A DNA stretch of 64,000 nt from Rhodococcus sp. RD6.2 (GTDB taxonomy: Bacteria; Actinomycetota; Actinomycetes; Mycobacteriales; Mycobacteriaceae): contig NZ_CVQP01000001.1 of NCBI RefSeq assembly GCF_001040705.1, forward strand, positions 1 to 64,000, read 5' to 3'. The first letter of the stretch is position 1; every line of letters begins with the position of its first letter. Shown here piece by piece: positions 16,987 through 24,781 of this stretch. The translations under genes and the position numbers were made by a program. Below the pieces are notes generated by a model. The model saw nothing but the letters and a program-made list of their open reading frames with translations, did no database searches and had not been told where the DNA came from.

Positions 16987-18294
16987 CTACCTCAGCACCT
17001 TCGCTCCGAGGTATTCGCACACCTGGAGGGCAAGGGCGAGGTCGAGCCTGCTGCGCGAGCCCGGACCGGTCGAGGGGTCGCCGAGTGCCTTCGCGATCCG
17101 GTACTTCACCGTGTTGCGGTGCAGGTTCATCTGCTGTGCCGTGTGGAGGTGGCTCTGCCCGGTCTCGAAGTAGGTGCTCAGCGTGGTGCGCAGTGTCGCG
17201 GCCTGCTCGGTGCCCTCGGCGAGCGGGCCGAGCACCTCCCACACCCAGGCCCGCGTGGAGTCCAGGTTTTCGGCGAGCAGCGAGACCACCGCGACACCGC
17301 GGTCACCGAAACTCACGATCGGCCGGTGCGCCATCGCGTGTTCGCTGGCAACGGAGTATGCAGCCAGTGCCTGCTCGTGCGAGCGGCGGAAGCCCGTCGA
17401 CCCGGCCGCGGGCAGCCCGAGCGCGATCCGCGTGCCGGGCGACGGCGTGAGCGCTGCGGCGAGGGCGACCGAGTCGATCGCGGGTTGCCGACGCCCGAAC
17501 GGCAGCCAGGCCCAGAGGGTTCGGCGGTCGATCGCGGTCACGATCGGGGCCGTGTCCGTGTGCAGTTGCGCGGCCAGTGCCCGCAGGCTGTGGTCGAGTG
17601 CGTTCAGGCTCGGGTCGTCGTCCCTGGTCGACCAGACGACGACCGCGACGTGGGTCTGCGCGAGCCGATAGTGCGTCTCGGCTTCGAAGGTGCCCTCATC
17701 GGTGCCGGAACCGTCGAGTAGGCCGTGAATCGTCGATGAATGGACGTTGCCCTGTGCGCCGATCCAGCGCCTGCGTTCCCGCTCGTACGCTTCGAACACG
17801 TACAGCGTGATCCAGTCGATGTAGCTGTAGATCACGTCCGAAAGATGTTTGAGCACAGCCAGAGTCAGTTTGGTGCTCAGGCCGAGTGAGGTGACCTCCT
17901 CGTAGCAGACACGCATGAGGTCGTCCTGGCCCATGTGGTACGCCCGCACCAGCGAATGCGACGACACCTCGCGCTGCGCCAACCGCAGCGCGTACTCGAC
18001 TGCAGCGGTGGTCGGCTGCAGGTGTTCGACCGGTATGTCGTTGGCCAGCACGTCGACGATGGTGGCGACGTTGCCCGCCACGCTGGCCTCGAGAAGTTCC
18101 ACGAGCTGCGGATCATTGTCGAGCTGGTCGATCTCGCGGGCGAGCAGCGCGCTCATCCCTCCGATGATTTCCGATTTTCGGGTGTCGAGGTCCCGCGCGA
18201 TCGCTACTACGATCGCGCGGACCTCGCCGTCCGCGGGCGCGGGGACCCGCGCAGCCCGTGGCCGGGCCCGGTCGTCGCCTGCCGGCATGGTCAC
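16987..18294 (-). CDS. PucR-family transcriptional regulator
   Basis: A 435-residue cytoplasmic DNA-binding protein. The N-terminal half (about 25-180) is an all-helical sensor region (RDLDTRKSEIIGGMSALLAREI, HSLVRAYHMGQDDLMRVC) of the RsbRD/DUF-type found in PucR proteins. A GGDEF-like degenerate middle follows, and the C-terminal PucR helix-turn-helix is clear: TLSTYFETGQSHLHTAQQMNLHRNTVKYRIAKA. The start GTG 18294 overlaps the preceding gene's stop (GTGA), so the regulator is the last gene of the four-gene island and is translated with it; an ATG six nt later is an alternative. It probably controls its own operon. Confidence 0.9.
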   Translation of the reverse strand: MTMPAGDDRARPRAARVPAPADGEVRAIVVAIARDLDTRKSEIIGGMSALLAREIDQLDNDPQLVELLEASVAGNVATIVDVLANDIPVEHLQPTTAAVEYALRLAQREVSSHSLVRAYHMGQDDLMRVCYEEVTSLGLSTKLTLAVLKHLSDVIYSYIDWITLYVFEAYERERRRWIGAQGNVHSSTIHGLLDGSGTDEGTFEAETHYRLAQTHVAVVVWSTRDDDPSLNALDHSLRALAAQLHTDTAPIVTAIDRRTLWAWLPFGRRQPAIDSVALAAALTPSPGTRIALGLPAAGSTGFRRSHEQALAAYSVASEHAMAHRPIVSFGDRGVAVVSLLAENLDSTRAWVWEVLGPLAEGTEQAATLRTTLSTYFETGQSHLHTAQQMNLHRNTVKYRIAKALGDPSTGPGSRSRLDLALALQVCEYLGAKVLR

Positions 18295-19724
18295 AGGACG
18301 TCGGCCCCCTTCCGCCGCAGGTGACGCAGGGCCGACTCGGCCGCGTTGTAGCCGCACATACCGTGGGCGCCCGCCCCAGGCGGTGTGGAGGCGGAACACA
18401 GGAACGTGCCGGGAACGCCGATGCTGTACGGGTCCAGCGCGATCCGCGGTCGCAGCACCACCTGCATCTCGCTGTTGGCGCCGCCGACGATGTCGCCGCC
18501 GACGTAGTTCGGGTTCGACGCCGCGAGCCGCGCCGGTCCGGCGGTGACCGTGGCCAGGATCCGATCACGGAAGCCGGGTGCGAACCGCTCGATCTGCGCG
18601 ACGACGGCGTCGGTGGCATCGCCCGCATGACCGTGCGGGACGTGGGCGTACGCGTACACCGGGTTCAGCCCGTCCCGCGAGCGGGTCGGGTCGGCGACGT
18701 ACTGCTGGCCGAGCAGGACGAACGGCCGCTGCGGCATCCGGCCGGCGGTGACGTCCCGCTCGGCTGCGGCGATGTCGCCGAAACTCCCGCCGAGGTGCAC
18801 CGTCCCGGCTCGTCCCACGGCCGGATCGGTCCACGGAATCGGCCCCTCCACAGCGAAGTCCACCTTGAACGCGCCCGCGCCGTGCCGGAATCGGCGGTAG
18901 GCCCGGGCGACACGCGTCGGCACCCGGTCGCCGAGGACGTCGAGTGCCGCCGCTGGAGTCAGATCGAGTAGGACGACGTCGGCAGGTGGGATGTCCCGTT
19001 CGGACCGCACCCGGACGCCCGTGCTGATCTTCCCGCCGTGGTCGGTCAGCATCGCAGCGAGGGCGTCGGTGATCGCGCGGGATCCGCCCTCGGCCACCGG
19101 CCACCCGTACCGATGCCCGGCCGCCGCGATCATCAGCCCGACGGCCGAGGTCGCGGGCCGGTCGAGCCGGTAGTAGGCGTGGGCCGCCACCCCGCCGTAC
19201 AGGGCGCGGGCCTTCTCCGTTCGCAGCCATCTGGCCGTCACCGTCGCCGGAAGCAGCGCGCGCGGCCCGAACGCGGCCAGCTTCAGCGGGTGCCGGGGGA
19301 CACGGGCGATCGGCCGCATCAGGTCCGCGGCCAGATCGTCGAAGTTGACGGCCAGATCGCCGACGAGGCGCCGCCACCGTGGACCGTCGACCCCCAGTCC
19401 GTCCGCGGTCACCTCCACGGACCGGTGCAGTAGGCCTGCGTCGCCATCGTCGAGCGGATGTGCGCAGTCGATCTCGGGCCACCGCCACGTGAGTCCGTAA
19501 CGGTCCAGGCCGAGCGCCTGCAGGTACGGCGAGCCTGCGCCCATCGGGTGGAACGCCGAACACTCGTCGTGGACCAGTCCGGGCAGGGTGAGTTCCGCCG
19601 AGCGGGCACCGCCTCCGATCAGGTCGGCGGCCTCGAGTACCTGCACGTCCACCCCGCTGCGGGCGAGGTGGACCGCGGCAGCGAGCCCGTTGGGCCCGCT
19701 GCCGACGACCACGGCAGTGCTCAA
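18291..19724 (-). CDS. CrtI-like FAD-dependent oxidoreductase
   Basis: A 477-residue flavoprotein of the phytoene desaturase/amine oxidase superfamily. The N-terminal Rossmann motif is VVVGSGPNGLAAAVHLARSG, followed by the acidic ribose-binding VLEAADLIGGGARS. The C-terminal FAD-closing segment is GTFLCSASTPPGAGAHGMCGYNAAESAL. No carotenoid genes (crtB, crtE) are nearby, so carotenoid desaturation is unlikely; family members also act on other isoprenoids and lipids, and the substrate here is unknown. The start is TTG 19724 by homology to the Rossmann strand; it overlaps the DUF3556 stop as TTGA. Second-to-last gene of the island. Confidence 0.88.
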   Translation of the reverse strand: MSTAVVVGSGPNGLAAAVHLARSGVDVQVLEAADLIGGGARSAELTLPGLVHDECSAFHPMGAGSPYLQALGLDRYGLTWRWPEIDCAHPLDDGDAGLLHRSVEVTADGLGVDGPRWRRLVGDLAVNFDDLAADLMRPIARVPRHPLKLAAFGPRALLPATVTARWLRTEKARALYGGVAAHAYYRLDRPATSAVGLMIAAAGHRYGWPVAEGGSRAITDALAAMLTDHGGKISTGVRVRSERDIPPADVVLLDLTPAAALDVLGDRVPTRVARAYRRFRHGAGAFKVDFAVEGPIPWTDPAVGRAGTVHLGGSFGDIAAAERDVTAGRMPQRPFVLLGQQYVADPTRSRDGLNPVYAYAHVPHGHAGDATDAVVAQIERFAPGFRDRILATVTAGPARLAASNPNYVGGDIVGGANSEMQVVLRPRIALDPYSIGVPGTFLCSASTPPGAGAHGMCGYNAAESALRHLRRKGADVL

Positions 19725-21535
19725 GGTCGCGCCACCGACTCGGTCCGGGGTGTGCTCTGCATCAGGGTCTCCTTCGAATCCGACTCCAGTGTCCACCTCA
19801 CCTCGAACGGAATGGGGCCGTTCGGCAGCCACGGCTGCTCGGCGACCGCGTCGGCGACGCGGTAGGTGCCCCGTTCGATCACGCCGAGCGCGGCATCGAT
19901 CACCCGGTACTCCTGCACGCCCTTGTGGATCGGCTGGGACTCGATCCAGGCGATCACGAACTCTCCGGGAGCGAAATTGCAGCGGCGCTGGAGTGCTGCG
20001 ATCAGGTGTTCGTTGTGCAGGTGACCGTCGCCGAAATTGAACGCCACCAACGAGTTACAGCTGAACTCTGCCTCCCGCAGGGTGTAGGTGTCGATGTCGT
20101 CACCGAGGTGGTTGATCATCAGCGACAGCAGCGCACGGCCCTGGCTGTGCATCGACCTCCAGCCGAGGAGTTGATGCATCACGACGTCGGCGACCTCGGG
20201 CGGGTACGACGCGAGCAGCTGCGTGCGGGTGTTCTTCGTGGGCCGGGTGACGAACCGGTCGAGCTTGTCCTCGGCGCCGGGCGCGAACGCCCACGTCGCC
20301 GAGGCCCAGTTGCCCGCGTACTGCCGCATCGACGGCAGGAACGAGACCAGGTCGGGCCGCAGGTTGCCGAGGATCGGGAAGAAGACCAGTGCCGCGACCA
20401 CGCCCGCGGTCAGCCACGGTGAGGACATGTCACCGAGCCCGTACCCGTTCCAGGTGGGGAAGCCCACGAAGAGGAACACCGAGGCGTAGGCGAAGAGCAC
20501 GTTCCATTCGAGCGGCACCGCGAGCGGGAACGTGGACAGGATGAACAGGTGGAACGCGACCATCAGCACCACCGCGATCAGCGTCACCGTCCGGTTGGTG
20601 GAGAACAGCAGCACCAGCGGGGTGGCGACCTCGACGAGGGTGCCGAGGACGTGCGCGACGCCGCCCGCCGCCTTCGACGGCCGCAGGTCCTCCGGGAAGT
20701 TGCGGTAGTGAGCGCGTTTGATCGCCTTCGACGGTATCCACGGGGTGTTGCTCAGCATCGGCGGAACCACCATCGAGAAGTGGTGGCCGAGCTTCGAGAC
20801 TCCGGCGCCGATCCACACGGACACGATGAGCAGCTTGAGCGCGATGATCATGTCCACGAACGGCAGCGTCGCGAAGAACACCATCGCAGGCAGGTACTGC
20901 TCGCTGCGGGCGGCGATGAAGATCACCTTGTCACGCAGTCCGAGCACGATCAGCAGCACGATGACCGGGACCACGGCCGCGGGACGCACCAGGCCCGAGT
21001 TGTCCGCAACCGCCGCATCGAGCGAGGCCGTGTGCACACCCGGAAGTACAAGCGACACCACGAGAGTGGCCAGCAGGCCGGCGTACAGGGCCACGTCGAC
21101 CGGAGTGCGGGTGTCCCCGGAGGTGAGCGGGACCTTGCCGGGCCACGGAGGAAGCCGGATCGTCCCGGGTCGCAGCCAGTACAGGATGCCACCGGTCATC
21201 GGCGTGAAGTGGCCGGCCAATGGGCCCCACGAACCCGCCAGCCCCACCGATTCGAGCAGCACCGTCCACAGAATCAGCTTCTGGTAGACGATCGGGTCGT
21301 TCCACCACACTCCGACGTCGATCGGGTTCAACCCCGACGTCAGGGTCGCGATGGAGACGCCCGCGCCGATGTACACGAACAGCAGTTTGAGGATGTAGAT
21401 CGTGTGCACCATCTTCGGGGTGCCGAAGCCGTGATCGACCCAGTGCGTCGACATGGCTCGAATCCGGTCGAGGAACGGGCGGTCGAGGAAGGTCGCCGGA
21501 TCGACGTCAGGGAAGTTCCCGGTCTTGAATCCCAT
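19721..21535 (-). CDS. DUF3556 multi-pass membrane protein
   Basis: A 604-residue protein with about nine or ten transmembrane helices in the first 400 residues (for example LKLLFVYIGAGVSIATL, LLIVLGLRDKVIFIAARSEQ, LIAVVLMVAFHLFIL) and a soluble C-terminal domain of about 200 residues (SCNSLVAFNFGDGHLHNEHL). It matches the actinobacterial DUF3556 family, whose function is unknown. The start ATG 21535 has a good ribosome binding site (AGGAGA) and begins MGFKTGNFPDVDPATFLDRP. It lies 107 bp after the acyl-CoA ligase and overlaps the oxidoreductase by 4 bp. Being sandwiched between a ligase and an FAD oxidoreductase suggests handling of a lipid substrate at the membrane. Confidence 0.88.
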   Translation of the reverse strand: MGFKTGNFPDVDPATFLDRPFLDRIRAMSTHWVDHGFGTPKMVHTIYILKLLFVYIGAGVSIATLTSGLNPIDVGVWWNDPIVYQKLILWTVLLESVGLAGSWGPLAGHFTPMTGGILYWLRPGTIRLPPWPGKVPLTSGDTRTPVDVALYAGLLATLVVSLVLPGVHTASLDAAVADNSGLVRPAAVVPVIVLLIVLGLRDKVIFIAARSEQYLPAMVFFATLPFVDMIIALKLLIVSVWIGAGVSKLGHHFSMVVPPMLSNTPWIPSKAIKRAHYRNFPEDLRPSKAAGGVAHVLGTLVEVATPLVLLFSTNRTVTLIAVVLMVAFHLFILSTFPLAVPLEWNVLFAYASVFLFVGFPTWNGYGLGDMSSPWLTAGVVAALVFFPILGNLRPDLVSFLPSMRQYAGNWASATWAFAPGAEDKLDRFVTRPTKNTRTQLLASYPPEVADVVMHQLLGWRSMHSQGRALLSLMINHLGDDIDTYTLREAEFSCNSLVAFNFGDGHLHNEHLIAALQRRCNFAPGEFVIAWIESQPIHKGVQEYRVIDAALGVIERGTYRVADAVAEQPWLPNGPIPFEVRWTLESDSKETLMQSTPRTESVARP

Positions 21536-21642
21536 CGGATTCTCCTGGTTCTCTCGGGTTGTCGGGCTGCTGGGTGTTTCTCGGGTAGGGGGCATCGCCC
21601 CGGGTGTGCCCGAGGTCGATGTGGTGGGAGGTGTGGGTCGGG

Positions 21643-23106
21643 TCAGCCGACGTTCGCGGGGGAGTGGCGGCGACGCAGCGTCGGCTTGTCGATCTTGCCG
21701 ACCGGGTTGCGGGGAAGCGCCTCGACCACGTGAATCTCCGTCGGCAGTTTGACCTTCGCGATCCGGTCGCGCAGGTGGTCGGTGAGCTCCGCCGCGGTCG
21801 CGGTCGCGTCCGGGTAGATCACGACGTAGGCGACCGGCACCTCGCCGTACAACTGGTGGGGTGCGCCGACGACGGCCGATTCGAGCACTGCCCCGTGCGT
21901 GGCGAGGGCGTTCTCGATTTCCTTCGGATAGATGTTCTCGCCGCCGCGGATGATCATGTCCTTGATCCGGTCGACGAGGACGAGATGGCCGTCCTCGTCG
22001 ATCCTGCCGACGTCGCCGGTGTGCAGCCATCCGTCAACCACCGTGCGGGCGGTGTCATCGGGGCGCCCGAGGTAGCCGGACATGACATTCGGCCCCGCCA
22101 CCAGGACTTCGCCGACGGCGCCTTGCGGGAGGAGTTCTCCGTTCGGGCCCGCGATCGCGATGCGCTGGCCGGGCAGGGCGGGCCCGACCGTCCCGAGCTT
22201 GCGGGGGCCGTCGACCGGATTGCACGTCGACGCGCACGTGCCCTCTGTCAGCCCGTAGCCCTCGACGACGACCAGGCCGAGCGTCGCCTCCGCGCGCTCG
22301 AGCAGTTCCTTCGAGATCGGCGCCGCGCCGCACACCCCGAACCGCAGGGACGACACGTCGCGGTCCGCGGCGCCCGGTTGGGAGGCCAGCAGCGCGTAGA
22401 TCGTCGGCACCGCGGAGAAGTACGTCGGCCGGAGCCGCGCGACGTCGTCGAAGAATCTGGAAGCCGAGAAGTGGCCGGTGACACTGAGCTGACCGCCGAC
22501 CCGCATCGGAGCGAGAAAGCTGACGCAGATCGCGTTCACGTGGAACAGCGGCAGCACCAGCATGCAGTGGTCGTCGGCGGTCAGCGTGAAGGTCTGCACC
22601 ATCGCCCCGGTCATGTAGTGCAGATTGTCGTGGTCGAGCATCACGCCCTTCGGTCGTCCCGTCGAGCCCGACGTGTAGATCAGCAACGCGAGGTCCGCGC
22701 CCGCAGGCGGCGGCGGAGCGATCCAGCCCGGATCGACCACGAGCTCCATGTCCGCGACAGTGATCGTCGGCCGCCCGTCGGTGCGGTCACCCTCCTGGGC
22801 GGTGACCACGAGAACGGCTGCGGCGTCGTCGATCTGGTACTGCGCCTCGGTCTCGGTGAAGTTCGGATTGACGGGGGTCGCGGCGGCACCGAGGCGCCAC
22901 GCCGCCATCAGTGCGACGAGCAGTTCGACCCGGTTGGGCAGCACGACGGCGACGGTGTCACCGCGGCGGAGTCCGGATCGGTGCAACTGTGCAGCGAACG
23001 CGTCGACCCGATCCGCGAACTCCCGGTACGTCAACTCGGTGTGGTCGTCACGCACGCAGGGTGAATCGCCGTGGTCGGCAACGGTGTCCCACGCGAAATA
23101 GCTCAT
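21643..23106 (-). CDS. Acyl-CoA ligase (AMP-forming), FadD-like
   Basis: A 487-residue ANL-superfamily ligase. The P-loop YTSGSTGRPKGVM, the A5 motif VVVEGYGLTEGTCAST, the A7/A8 segment GWLHTGDVGRIDEDGHLVLVDRIKDMI and the catalytic C-terminal lysine in ALPRNPVGKIDKPTLRRR are all intact. It activates a carboxylic acid as acyl-AMP and then acyl-CoA; the acid cannot be deduced. The start is ATG 23106 (MSYFAWDTVADHGD); a GTG two codons upstream is also possible. It is the first gene of the minus-strand island and diverges from the secreted lipase across 253 bp with clustered inverted repeats. Confidence 0.9.
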   Translation of the reverse strand: MSYFAWDTVADHGDSPCVRDDHTELTYREFADRVDAFAAQLHRSGLRRGDTVAVVLPNRVELLVALMAAWRLGAAATPVNPNFTETEAQYQIDDAAAVLVVTAQEGDRTDGRPTITVADMELVVDPGWIAPPPPAGADLALLIYTSGSTGRPKGVMLDHDNLHYMTGAMVQTFTLTADDHCMLVLPLFHVNAICVSFLAPMRVGGQLSVTGHFSASRFFDDVARLRPTYFSAVPTIYALLASQPGAADRDVSSLRFGVCGAAPISKELLERAEATLGLVVVEGYGLTEGTCASTCNPVDGPRKLGTVGPALPGQRIAIAGPNGELLPQGAVGEVLVAGPNVMSGYLGRPDDTARTVVDGWLHTGDVGRIDEDGHLVLVDRIKDMIIRGGENIYPKEIENALATHGAVLESAVVGAPHQLYGEVPVAYVVIYPDATATAAELTDHLRDRIAKVKLPTEIHVVEALPRNPVGKIDKPTLRRRHSPANVG

Positions 23107-23207
23107 GTTCACGACGTTCTCGCAATCCGTTCGGGGTGTGACCACCGACACTATTGACGCGGTGATGGGTGAGAAACGGCCTGCGAGGCCAGACTTCGCG
23201 CCGCGGT

Positions 23208-23289
23208 TTGTCCTCCCGGGACAAGTCGGGTGGTCGCGGCCAGGCCGTCGGGCGGCGCGGACCTGGTCAGTTGTCTTGGACAATTGTCC
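23208..23289. promoter_or_regulatory. Cluster of TTGTC/GACAA operator-like half-sites
   Basis: In the 253-bp divergent region between the acyl-CoA ligase and the lipase there are five TTGTC/GACAA half-sites. They form TTGTCC-N5-GGACAA (23208-23224), TTGTC-N3-GACAA (23271-23283) and the perfect 12-bp palindrome GGACAATTGTCC (23278-23289). Such overlapping dyads are typical of a dimeric regulator binding site. The PucR-type regulator at the end of the ligase operon is the obvious candidate binder, by inference only. Confidence 0.6.
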
Positions 23290-23335
23290 TGGTCACGGCC
23301 TGGACGTGGCGGATCGCGAATCCTAGGAATTGGAC

Positions 23336-23349
23336 TGAAACTTGTTCTA
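23336..23349. promoter_or_regulatory. KstR-like site upstream of secreted lipase
   Basis: TGAAACTTGTTCTA fits the palindromic KstR pattern TnnAACnnGTTnnA at every fixed position. It ends 10 nt before the lipase start codon, overlapping the expected leader, where a bound repressor could block transcription. KstR is the TetR repressor of cholesterol catabolism in rhodococci and mycobacteria (established). Whether this site is bound is inference. Confidence 0.55.
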
Positions 23350-23359
23350 GGTTCGGCTG

Positions 23360-24781
23360 ATGCCATCCAACACACATCGAGGGTCCGCCCGGTCCGCCCG
23401 GGCCCTTGTGCGCGGCTGGCGAGGGCACGGCGTCCGTGCCCTCGCCGTCGCGGTCGTGGCCGCAGGTTCGCTCCTCCCCGCCGCGGCCCTCTCGCCCGCC
23501 GCAGCCACACCGAACCGCGTCGACGACTTCTACGTCCCGCCCGAAGGGTTCGCCGATGTCGAGCCGGGAACGGTCCTGCGCTCCCGCGAGATCCAGCCTT
23601 CGGCACTCCAACTGGTGCCGATGAAGGTGCGTGCCTGGCAGCTGCTGTACCGGACGACCGATTCGAACGGCAGTCCCTACGCCGCGGTCACCACGGTCCT
23701 CGAGCGCAACGGCGACAGCGCCCCCGCCGCCGTCCTGTCCTACGACAGCATGATCGACGCGATCGCCCCCGACTGCATGCCCTCGCGGGTGCTCCAGACC
23801 GGTGCGCCCTGGTTCAACGTCACGGGCGAGACCGGCCCCGTGGCCCTGTCGACGACGGCGAGCGAGGTTCCGATGATCGCCGCAGGCCTGGAACAGAACT
23901 GGGTGGTGTCGGTCCCGGACCTCGGCGGCATCGAGAATCGGTTCCTCACGCCCCGCGAGCCGGGCTACGTCGCTTTGGACGGCGTGCGCGCCGTCCAGAA
24001 CTTCGAGCAGATCGACGCGGTGGATCGGAACACGCCTGCACTCTTCTGGGGCTACTCCGGCGGCGGGATCGCGACCAGCTGGGCTGCAGAGGTCCAGCCC
24101 ACCTATGCGTCCGAACTGCGGGTGGCGGGGATGGCGATCGGCGCTCCGGTGCCGGACTTCGCTGCAGCCGTCCGTCAGGGGAACGGCTCCCTGGTCGCAG
24201 GACTCGTCGCGATCGGCCTGGCCGGGCTCGCGCAGGATTCCCCCGAGTTCACCACGCTGCTCGACAGGTACCTGACCCCCGCGGGCAAGCAGGCGGCCCT
24301 GGCAGCGGCGGCCGACTGCACGCCGCAGAACCTCCTCTCGTTCCCGTTCACCAACTTCGACAGCCTCATGACCGTGCCGTTGACGGAGGTGCTCGCCGAC
24401 CCGTTGACCCGGCGACTGCTCGACGAGCGTGCACTGGGCACGACGGCGCCGACAGCGCCGGTCTACCTCTACAACGGCATCAACGACGAGCTGAGCACCA
24501 TCGCGTCGGCCGACGGGCTCGTCGATCGGTACTGTCGCGGCGGGACCGCCGTCACCTACCAGCGAGACCCGTTCCCGAATGTGCTCTCGGCGCACACCGC
24601 GCTGTGGGCGCTGGGCGCGCCGGCGGCACTCGCGTGGCTCCGGGGGCAGGTCGACGATCCCGGCGCGACCCGCACGTGCACAACCCAGACCCTGTCCGCC
24701 ATCTCGACACCCGAGGCGCTGGACACTCTGGGCCCCGACTACATCGGCGGCACGGTCAAGGCGATCCTCGACGGACGCTAG
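23360..24781 (+). CDS. Secreted lipase (LIP family)
   Basis: A 473-residue exported alpha/beta hydrolase of the secretory lipase family (Pfam LIP type). A long signal peptide with a twin-basic N-region and hydrophobic core (VRALAVAVVAAGSLLPAAAL) ends near residue 50. The nucleophile elbow is WGYSGGGIATSW with Ser233. The catalytic Asp is probably in YNGINDEL and the His in NVLSAHTALWALGAPAALAW. Family members hydrolyse triacylglycerols or esters outside the cell. It is divergent from the acyl-CoA ligase and may supply fatty acids for it. Its stop codon shares a CTAG with the convergent dinG stop. Confidence 0.9.
   Translation: MPSNTHRGSARSARALVRGWRGHGVRALAVAVVAAGSLLPAAALSPAAATPNRVDDFYVPPEGFADVEPGTVLRSREIQPSALQLVPMKVRAWQLLYRTTDSNGSPYAAVTTVLERNGDSAPAAVLSYDSMIDAIAPDCMPSRVLQTGAPWFNVTGETGPVALSTTASEVPMIAAGLEQNWVVSVPDLGGIENRFLTPREPGYVALDGVRAVQNFEQIDAVDRNTPALFWGYSGGGIATSWAAEVQPTYASELRVAGMAIGAPVPDFAAAVRQGNGSLVAGLVAIGLAGLAQDSPEFTTLLDRYLTPAGKQAALAAAADCTPQNLLSFPFTNFDSLMTVPLTEVLADPLTRRLLDERALGTTAPTAPVYLYNGINDELSTIASADGLVDRYCRGGTAVTYQRDPFPNVLSAHTALWALGAPAALAWLRGQVDDPGATRTCTTQTLSAISTPEALDTLGPDYIGGTVKAILDGR

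Follow-up and report, generated by a model that had tools for sequence, protein, structure and literature searches.

Vitamin K-dependent gamma-carboxylase (GGCX) is an enzyme known for modifying proteins. According to one account, its K218 acts as the base for the quinol, its quinone ring pocket is lined by F286, F294, F299, H160 and others, and N159, H160 and Y395 hold the glutamate (Glu) substrate (PMC12589487). An HTTM protein is listed in a paper on linaridins, which calls its mechanism unclear (PMC9927463). The window considered here, a stretch of 64,000 nucleotides (nt) of Rhodococcus sp. RD6.2 (contig NZ_CVQP01000001.1), carries between glgP and dinG an island encoding a DUF3556 (PF12077) membrane protein together with an acyl-coenzyme A (CoA) ligase, a CrtI-like flavoprotein and a PucR-type regulator. 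Predicted models make it highly probable that DUF3556 shares a fold relationship with GGCX; the GGCX-like nature of DUF3556 within a movable ligase–flavoprotein cassette appears to be the new point.

The fold assignment comes from structural searches with two predicted models. DUF3556 fits its own profile over almost its full length (E 2e-270, positions 1–572 of 573), and both models ranked 16 GGCX entries first, the best of them standing 6.5 and 9.9 Z units ahead of the next fold. The match covers both the membrane part and the C-terminal part, so that the overall GGCX architecture, a membrane domain followed by a C-terminal domain, is found in the predicted models. DoxX-like and lipase-maturation-factor-like families were absent from the 50 structural rows listed in these searches, which were not aimed at those families. 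At the sequence level, DUF3556 had no match in the PDB up to E 10; neither the window’s protein nor two relatives matched PF05090 (HTTM) even at E 10, and the window’s genome has no PF05090 match. Profile comparison by hhalign with five close GGCX orthologues alone gave no signal (probability 0.4%); a signal arose only with more diverse HTTM alignments. Five genomes of one genus (L180 to L184) encode close bacterial GGCX relatives, which score 257–268 bits to PF05090 and E 2e-54 by profile against GGCX chains.

Candidate active-site residues were mapped in two steps, from DUF3556 to HTTM by hhalign (alignment probability 42.6%) and from HTTM to GGCX by alignment, and their conservation was counted over 85 DUF3556 rows, 54 of them operon rows. 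Through the HTTM profile, the invariant lysine K248 would align with the catalytic base of GGCX, K218, a weak but consistent assignment. F328 (85/85) and H329 map to GGCX F286 and H287; F336 maps to F294 and is F in 54/54 operon rows, mostly I or L elsewhere. The GGCX segment N158-N159-H160 corresponds to R210, S/G/A/T211 and E212 (E in 85/85 rows). In both runs hhalign made S211 the counterpart of H160, and a register set by eye on the following Y-L gave E212; the idea that E212 stands exactly at H160 was thus not borne out. The Glu-binding N159 and H160 find no equivalent, there being no His at position 211 or 212, and position 213 is His in 6/85 rows. As far as these alignments go, the operon clade (the clade of the window’s DUF3556), at least, retains those quinol-side residues that were mapped, and the Glu-binding residues are not kept, as might be expected of the same cofactor chemistry acting on another substrate.

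Membrane orientation was estimated from loop charges, with helices taken from the predicted DUF3556 model and delimited manually on its DSSP line. Lysine plus arginine counts on loops 2-3, 4-5 and 6-7 are about 6–7, 3 and 6–8, against 0–1 on the other side, in all three groups. The corresponding charges of HTTM proteins are found mainly on the opposite loops, though their loop 5-6 carries 2.4–3.6 as well. The C-terminal domain of DUF3556 is net negative. Under the positive-inside rule, the loop charges suggest that the active site and the C-terminal domain are probably on the cytoplasmic side, which would fit an intracellular acyl-CoA substrate.

The gene order recurs among near relatives beyond chance. 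A contig scan found 344 relatives, and the best 80 named loci, a sample biased to near relatives, were analysed. Ligase, DUF3556 and CrtI are contiguous in this order (gaps < 400 nt, one strand) in 74/80 loci, and CrtI lies directly downstream of DUF3556 in 78/80; at these 78 junctions a 4-nt overlap was estimated in 50 and a spacing of 0–71 nt in 26, with 2 not estimable. A PucR-like gene lies at most 3.5 kilobases (kb) away in 77 loci (downstream on the same strand 35, upstream divergent 32, downstream convergent 9, upstream on the same strand 1), while none was found in the other three, two of which end at contig ends. Scored against the window’s PucR, these genes reach anything between 98 and 697 bits, and exchange of the regulator thus seems to have been frequent. 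Beyond the four genes, the commonest neighbour clusters occur in 15/86 and 13/86 loci, and no further gene family recurring widely around the cassette was found among these 86.

The cassette also occurs on plasmids. Nine plasmid records contain DUF3556, one of them NC_008269 of R. jostii RHA1; in all three copies viewed, ligase, DUF3556, flavoprotein and a helix-turn-helix regulator stand together, and on pR1CP1 the four genes are flanked on both sides by transposase genes. In the proposed explanation these four genes make up a movable metabolic unit, borne by plasmids and chromosomes among actinobacteria, and of this the conserved gene order is shown. The reading made from the sequence alone had suggested a dedicated pathway; a unit of ligase, DUF3556, flavoprotein and PucR does hold across many actinobacterial genera and plasmids, but the lipase that it included is judged not to belong. 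On a Tsukamurella plasmid (L211:1-3138), a cluster for mycofactocin biosynthesis was observed within a few kb of the cassette.

These bacteria make menaquinone. The proposed explanation, which we consider about as probable as its negation, is a movable cassette whose DUF3556 core is a distant GGCX homologue driving chemistry on a CoA-bound acid with menaquinol. The ligase would turn a small acid into its CoA thioester in the cytoplasm; DUF3556 would bind the cell’s own menaquinol, which O2 would oxidise to the epoxide through K248; and the resulting strong base might deprotonate an unreactive C-H of the acid. Carboxylation of the carbanion might follow, or instead isomerisation or oxidation. 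The CrtI-like flavoprotein would oxidise the product or return electrons to the quinone, and PucR presumably turns the cassette on in the presence of the acid. That DUF3556 performs quinol chemistry at all is put at an even chance, and carboxylation as the outcome is doubtful. The initial proposal that DUF3556 and the flavoprotein “modify or move” an acid at the membrane is made more specific by the GGCX fold. Equally tentative is the fullest form of the proposal: DUF3556 as a membrane-reversed GGCX relative working in intermediary metabolism, where menaquinol epoxidation driven by oxygen would deprotonate and carboxylate or isomerise the ligase-made CoA-acid, the flavoprotein would hold the quinone or the product in its proper redox state and the cassette would be mobile.

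A less biased sample, 246 genomes drawn evenly from the class and set beside 14 named control genomes, shows how often the partners occur together. DUF3556 occurs in 27/246 genomes (42 matches, 2 of them fragments) and in none of the 14 controls. Among the 40 full-length copies, 19 are clustered with CrtI and 21 are not. In the operon clade the cluster with CrtI holds for 14/14 sampled full-length copies, and the ligase adjoins 8 and is absent beside 5, while one locus (L147) is cut by a contig end. The 21 copies without CrtI all fall in a second clade (quick tree, long branches); one of them, the first copy in L131, is next door to a whole cassette, and the neighbours of lone copies are common to 8/20 loci at most. 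With six candidates scored per genome, 19 of the 34 CrtI matches of at least 550 bits share a cluster with DUF3556 and 15 stand alone, while 9/12 ligase matches at E 1e-120 or better lie beside DUF3556 (including the window’s and a truncated copy). The refuting condition named in the sequence-only reading, DUF3556 and the oxidoreductase being mostly apart in other genomes, thus has a mixed outcome: the two are together throughout the sample from the window’s clade but in only 19/40 copies family-wide. In locus L154 (L154:6153-9424), DUF3556 residues 1–122 run into CrtI residues 430–467 with ligase and PucR in place: most of DUF3556 and CrtI went together. The window’s genome has a second DUF3556–CrtI pair, of the other clade and without a ligase (G000:C1:565194-568323, L152).

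Lone CrtI genes bear on the best surviving alternative, an unlikely one, in which the GGCX/HTTM fold is kept without vitamin K chemistry: DUF3556 would bind a quinone or lipid and deliver or anchor the substrate, and the CrtI-like enzyme would be the catalyst. In a CrtI tree of 71 rows, lone copies lie interspersed with those from operons, and a lone CrtI sits at the glgP–dinG site of a congener with no DUF3556 match; their repeated occurrence speaks for a role of CrtI outside the DUF3556 pairing as well. That GGCX H160 is not kept also counts for this alternative. Against this, K248, F328 and H329 are invariant in 85/85 rows of both clades, which is more than a passive anchor seems to need, and 21 of the 40 DUF3556 copies occur without CrtI. 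The pair-type CrtIs of L132, L133 and L143 group with operon CrtIs of Gordonia in one clade (support 100/100; 96/75 for the Gordonia rows as sister), while their DUF3556 partners sit in the other DUF3556 clade. By these trees, the DUF3556–CrtI pairing has been formed anew or one partner swapped, which argues for a functional link between the two proteins.

Cell-envelope lipid modification is a further alternative, and an improbable one: the lipase would free an acid for activation by the ligase and for subsequent modification or export by DUF3556 and the flavoprotein. It draws on the gene neighbourhood of this one window, where the lipase is a clear member of its family (205.6 bits to PF03583, cut-off 23). 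In the 80 named loci, the lipase adjoins the ligase in none, a match lies anywhere in the fetched stretch in three, and the nearest is about 3.1 kb from DUF3556; no lipase is annotated alongside the three plasmid cassettes viewed. Lipase membership was rejected on these counts, the suggestion that a lipase supplies the acid as first step is unsupported, and the gene is judged a neighbour of the cassette. The ligase itself (PF00501 and PF13193 over cut-off, with the three motifs of Table 1, which we take to be those of the ANL superfamily) speaks on both sides. None of the 25 NCBIfam rows listed, of 109, reaches its cut-off, and the best is a long-chain-fatty-acid-CoA ligase subfamily just below it (446.3 of 476), as lipid modification would suggest; the top solved ligases by sequence are instead feruloyl-, malonyl- and oxalyl-CoA types, with FadD13 only at rank 9. 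In Rhodococcus opacus R7, a gene whose product is named a membrane protein and is 67% identical to a DUF3556 domain protein was reportedly upregulated on polyethylene (log fold change, LogFC, 5.5; PMC8556283, the one paper among those searched that mentions DUF3556), which would also suit a lipid substrate.

Degradation of a carotenoid- or isoprenoid-like acid is just as improbable. Here the CrtI-like enzyme would desaturate, DUF3556 would be a membrane oxidase and any vitamin K-like behaviour would be secondary. The flavoprotein has weak matches to crtI_fam and CrtO, and plasmid copies from crude-oil and chlorophenol isolates hint at catabolism; yet the scores are far under the cut-offs (51.8 of 238.1 bits for the CrtI family TIGR02734, crtI_fam; 82.2 of 1000 for the second CrtI-type score), and no widely recurring further gene family accompanies the cassette. 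Least probable of all is that DUF3556 is an unrelated membrane protein whose structural match reflects no more than the general likeness of helical bundles, given the lead of the GGCX entries with both models and a separately found profile alignment that matches the catalytic lysine.

The layout of the island is given in Table 1. The four minus-strand genes between glgP and dinG and the divergent secretory lipase, first noticed in the sequence-only reading, are confirmed; they are transcribed in the order acyl-CoA ligase, DUF3556, CrtI-like flavoprotein, PucR. Coupling by overlaps holds at two junctions read in the sequence, where the TTG start of the CrtI-like gene shares 4 nt with the end of DUF3556 (TTGA at 19724-19721) and the GTG start of PucR shares 4 nt with the end of the CrtI-like gene (GTGA at 18294-18291), but not between ligase and DUF3556, where there is a gap; gaps of 28–159 nt at this junction recur in contiguous relatives. 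A consensus scan of the ligase–lipase region found no sigma-70-like promoter, and a terminator scan found 1 terminator-like site against 2.0 expected by chance, both scans being uninformative for this bacterial group. A foreign base composition was rejected, since GC and third-position GC (GC3) of the cassette are close to those of flanking genes.

Table 1. Features of the island between glgP and dinG, with codons of mapped DUF3556 residues (positions in the window)
Feature	Position	Strand	Basis
PucR-type transcriptional regulator (GGDEF_2 + HTH_30)	16987..18294	-	PF17853 (GGDEF-like) and PF13556 (C-terminal HTH_30) over cut-off
CrtI/CrtO-superfamily flavin adenine dinucleotide (FAD) oxidoreductase, TTG start	18291..19724	-	NAD_binding_8, Amino_oxidase; weak crtI_fam and CrtO; GSGPNG motif
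DUF3556 (PF12077), ten-helix membrane protein with C-terminal domain, GGCX fold (predicted)	19721..21535	-	
DUF3556 H329 codon	20549..20551	-	invariant HTTM His, aligned with GGCX H287 (hhalign); invariant 85/85
DUF3556 K248 codon	20792..20794	-	aligned with GGCX catalytic base K218 (hhalign); invariant 85/85
DUF3556 S211 and E212 codons	20900..20905	-	segment corresponding to GGCX H160
Ligase–DUF3556 intergenic gap, 107 nt	21536..21642	-	Shine-Dalgarno-like AGGAG upstream of DUF3556 ATG
Acyl-CoA ligase of the ANL superfamily, leading the cassette	21643..23106	-	PF00501, PF13193; SGSTGRPKG, GWLHTGD, NPVGKID
Ligase–lipase intergenic region, presumed cassette promoter region	23107..23359	.	position only
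Secretory lipase (LIP family), divergent, judged outside the cassette	23360..24781	+	PF03583, E 1.3e-60

The glgP–dinG junction was compared in six genomes of the genus, the window’s and five congeners (G001–G005), all of which have both genes. Very little lies between the two in G004 and G005 (roughly 175 nt and a few nt, respectively), and about 2.8 kb of other genes separate them in G001 and G002. In G003 the spacing of about 2.7 kb consists of a lone CrtI gene, 82% identical to the window’s, plus about 1.3 kb; tblastn found no remnant of the other cassette genes there at E < 0.01, and the G003 genome has no DUF3556 match. Because junction content differs among congeners, glgP–dinG is a variable site, and it may be an insertion hotspot; the break in gene order reported earlier is real, but it is a break at a variable site, with two congeners nearly contiguous. 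In G004 the cassette sits elsewhere in the genome, with a DUF3556 that falls among rows from R. ruber and Millisia. DUF2252-like and diacylglycerol-kinase-like open reading frames were labelled by eye at congener junctions, and the otherwise empty G004 site shows, also by eye, a short GC-rich tandem repeat (L171:4516-4692).

Taken together, the first observation of the island is largely right and its interpretation partly right. If the GGCX-based proposal is true, the vitamin K oxygenation trick, the making of a very strong base in the membrane, would serve bacterial small-molecule metabolism too. A Pfam family of “unknown function” would gain a named fold, a lysine as candidate for catalysis, menaquinone as candidate cofactor and a testable operon, and the predicted opposite insertion of homologous folds into the membrane would be informative on the evolution of membrane enzymes.

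Each component resembles a known system in part. The window’s ligase has both domains in common with the feruloyl-CoA synthetase (8weu, 8wev) and the malonyl- and oxalyl-CoA ligases of the ANL superfamily, but its best PDB score, to 8weu/8wev (fatty-acyl-CoA synthase / feruloyl-CoA synthetase), is only about 283 bits. The flavoprotein shares an N-terminal FAD-binding motif and an amine-oxidase-like profile with CrtI/CrtO/HpnE-type enzymes, yet stays far below the crtI_fam cut-off. DUF3556 differs from GGCX and HTTM proteins in having no PF05090 match, in not keeping N159 and H160, in one extra N-terminal helix in its model (41–65) and in being found beside a ligase and a flavoprotein; and whereas the GGCX active site faces the lumen of the endoplasmic reticulum, that of DUF3556 is predicted by its charge pattern to face the reverse way.
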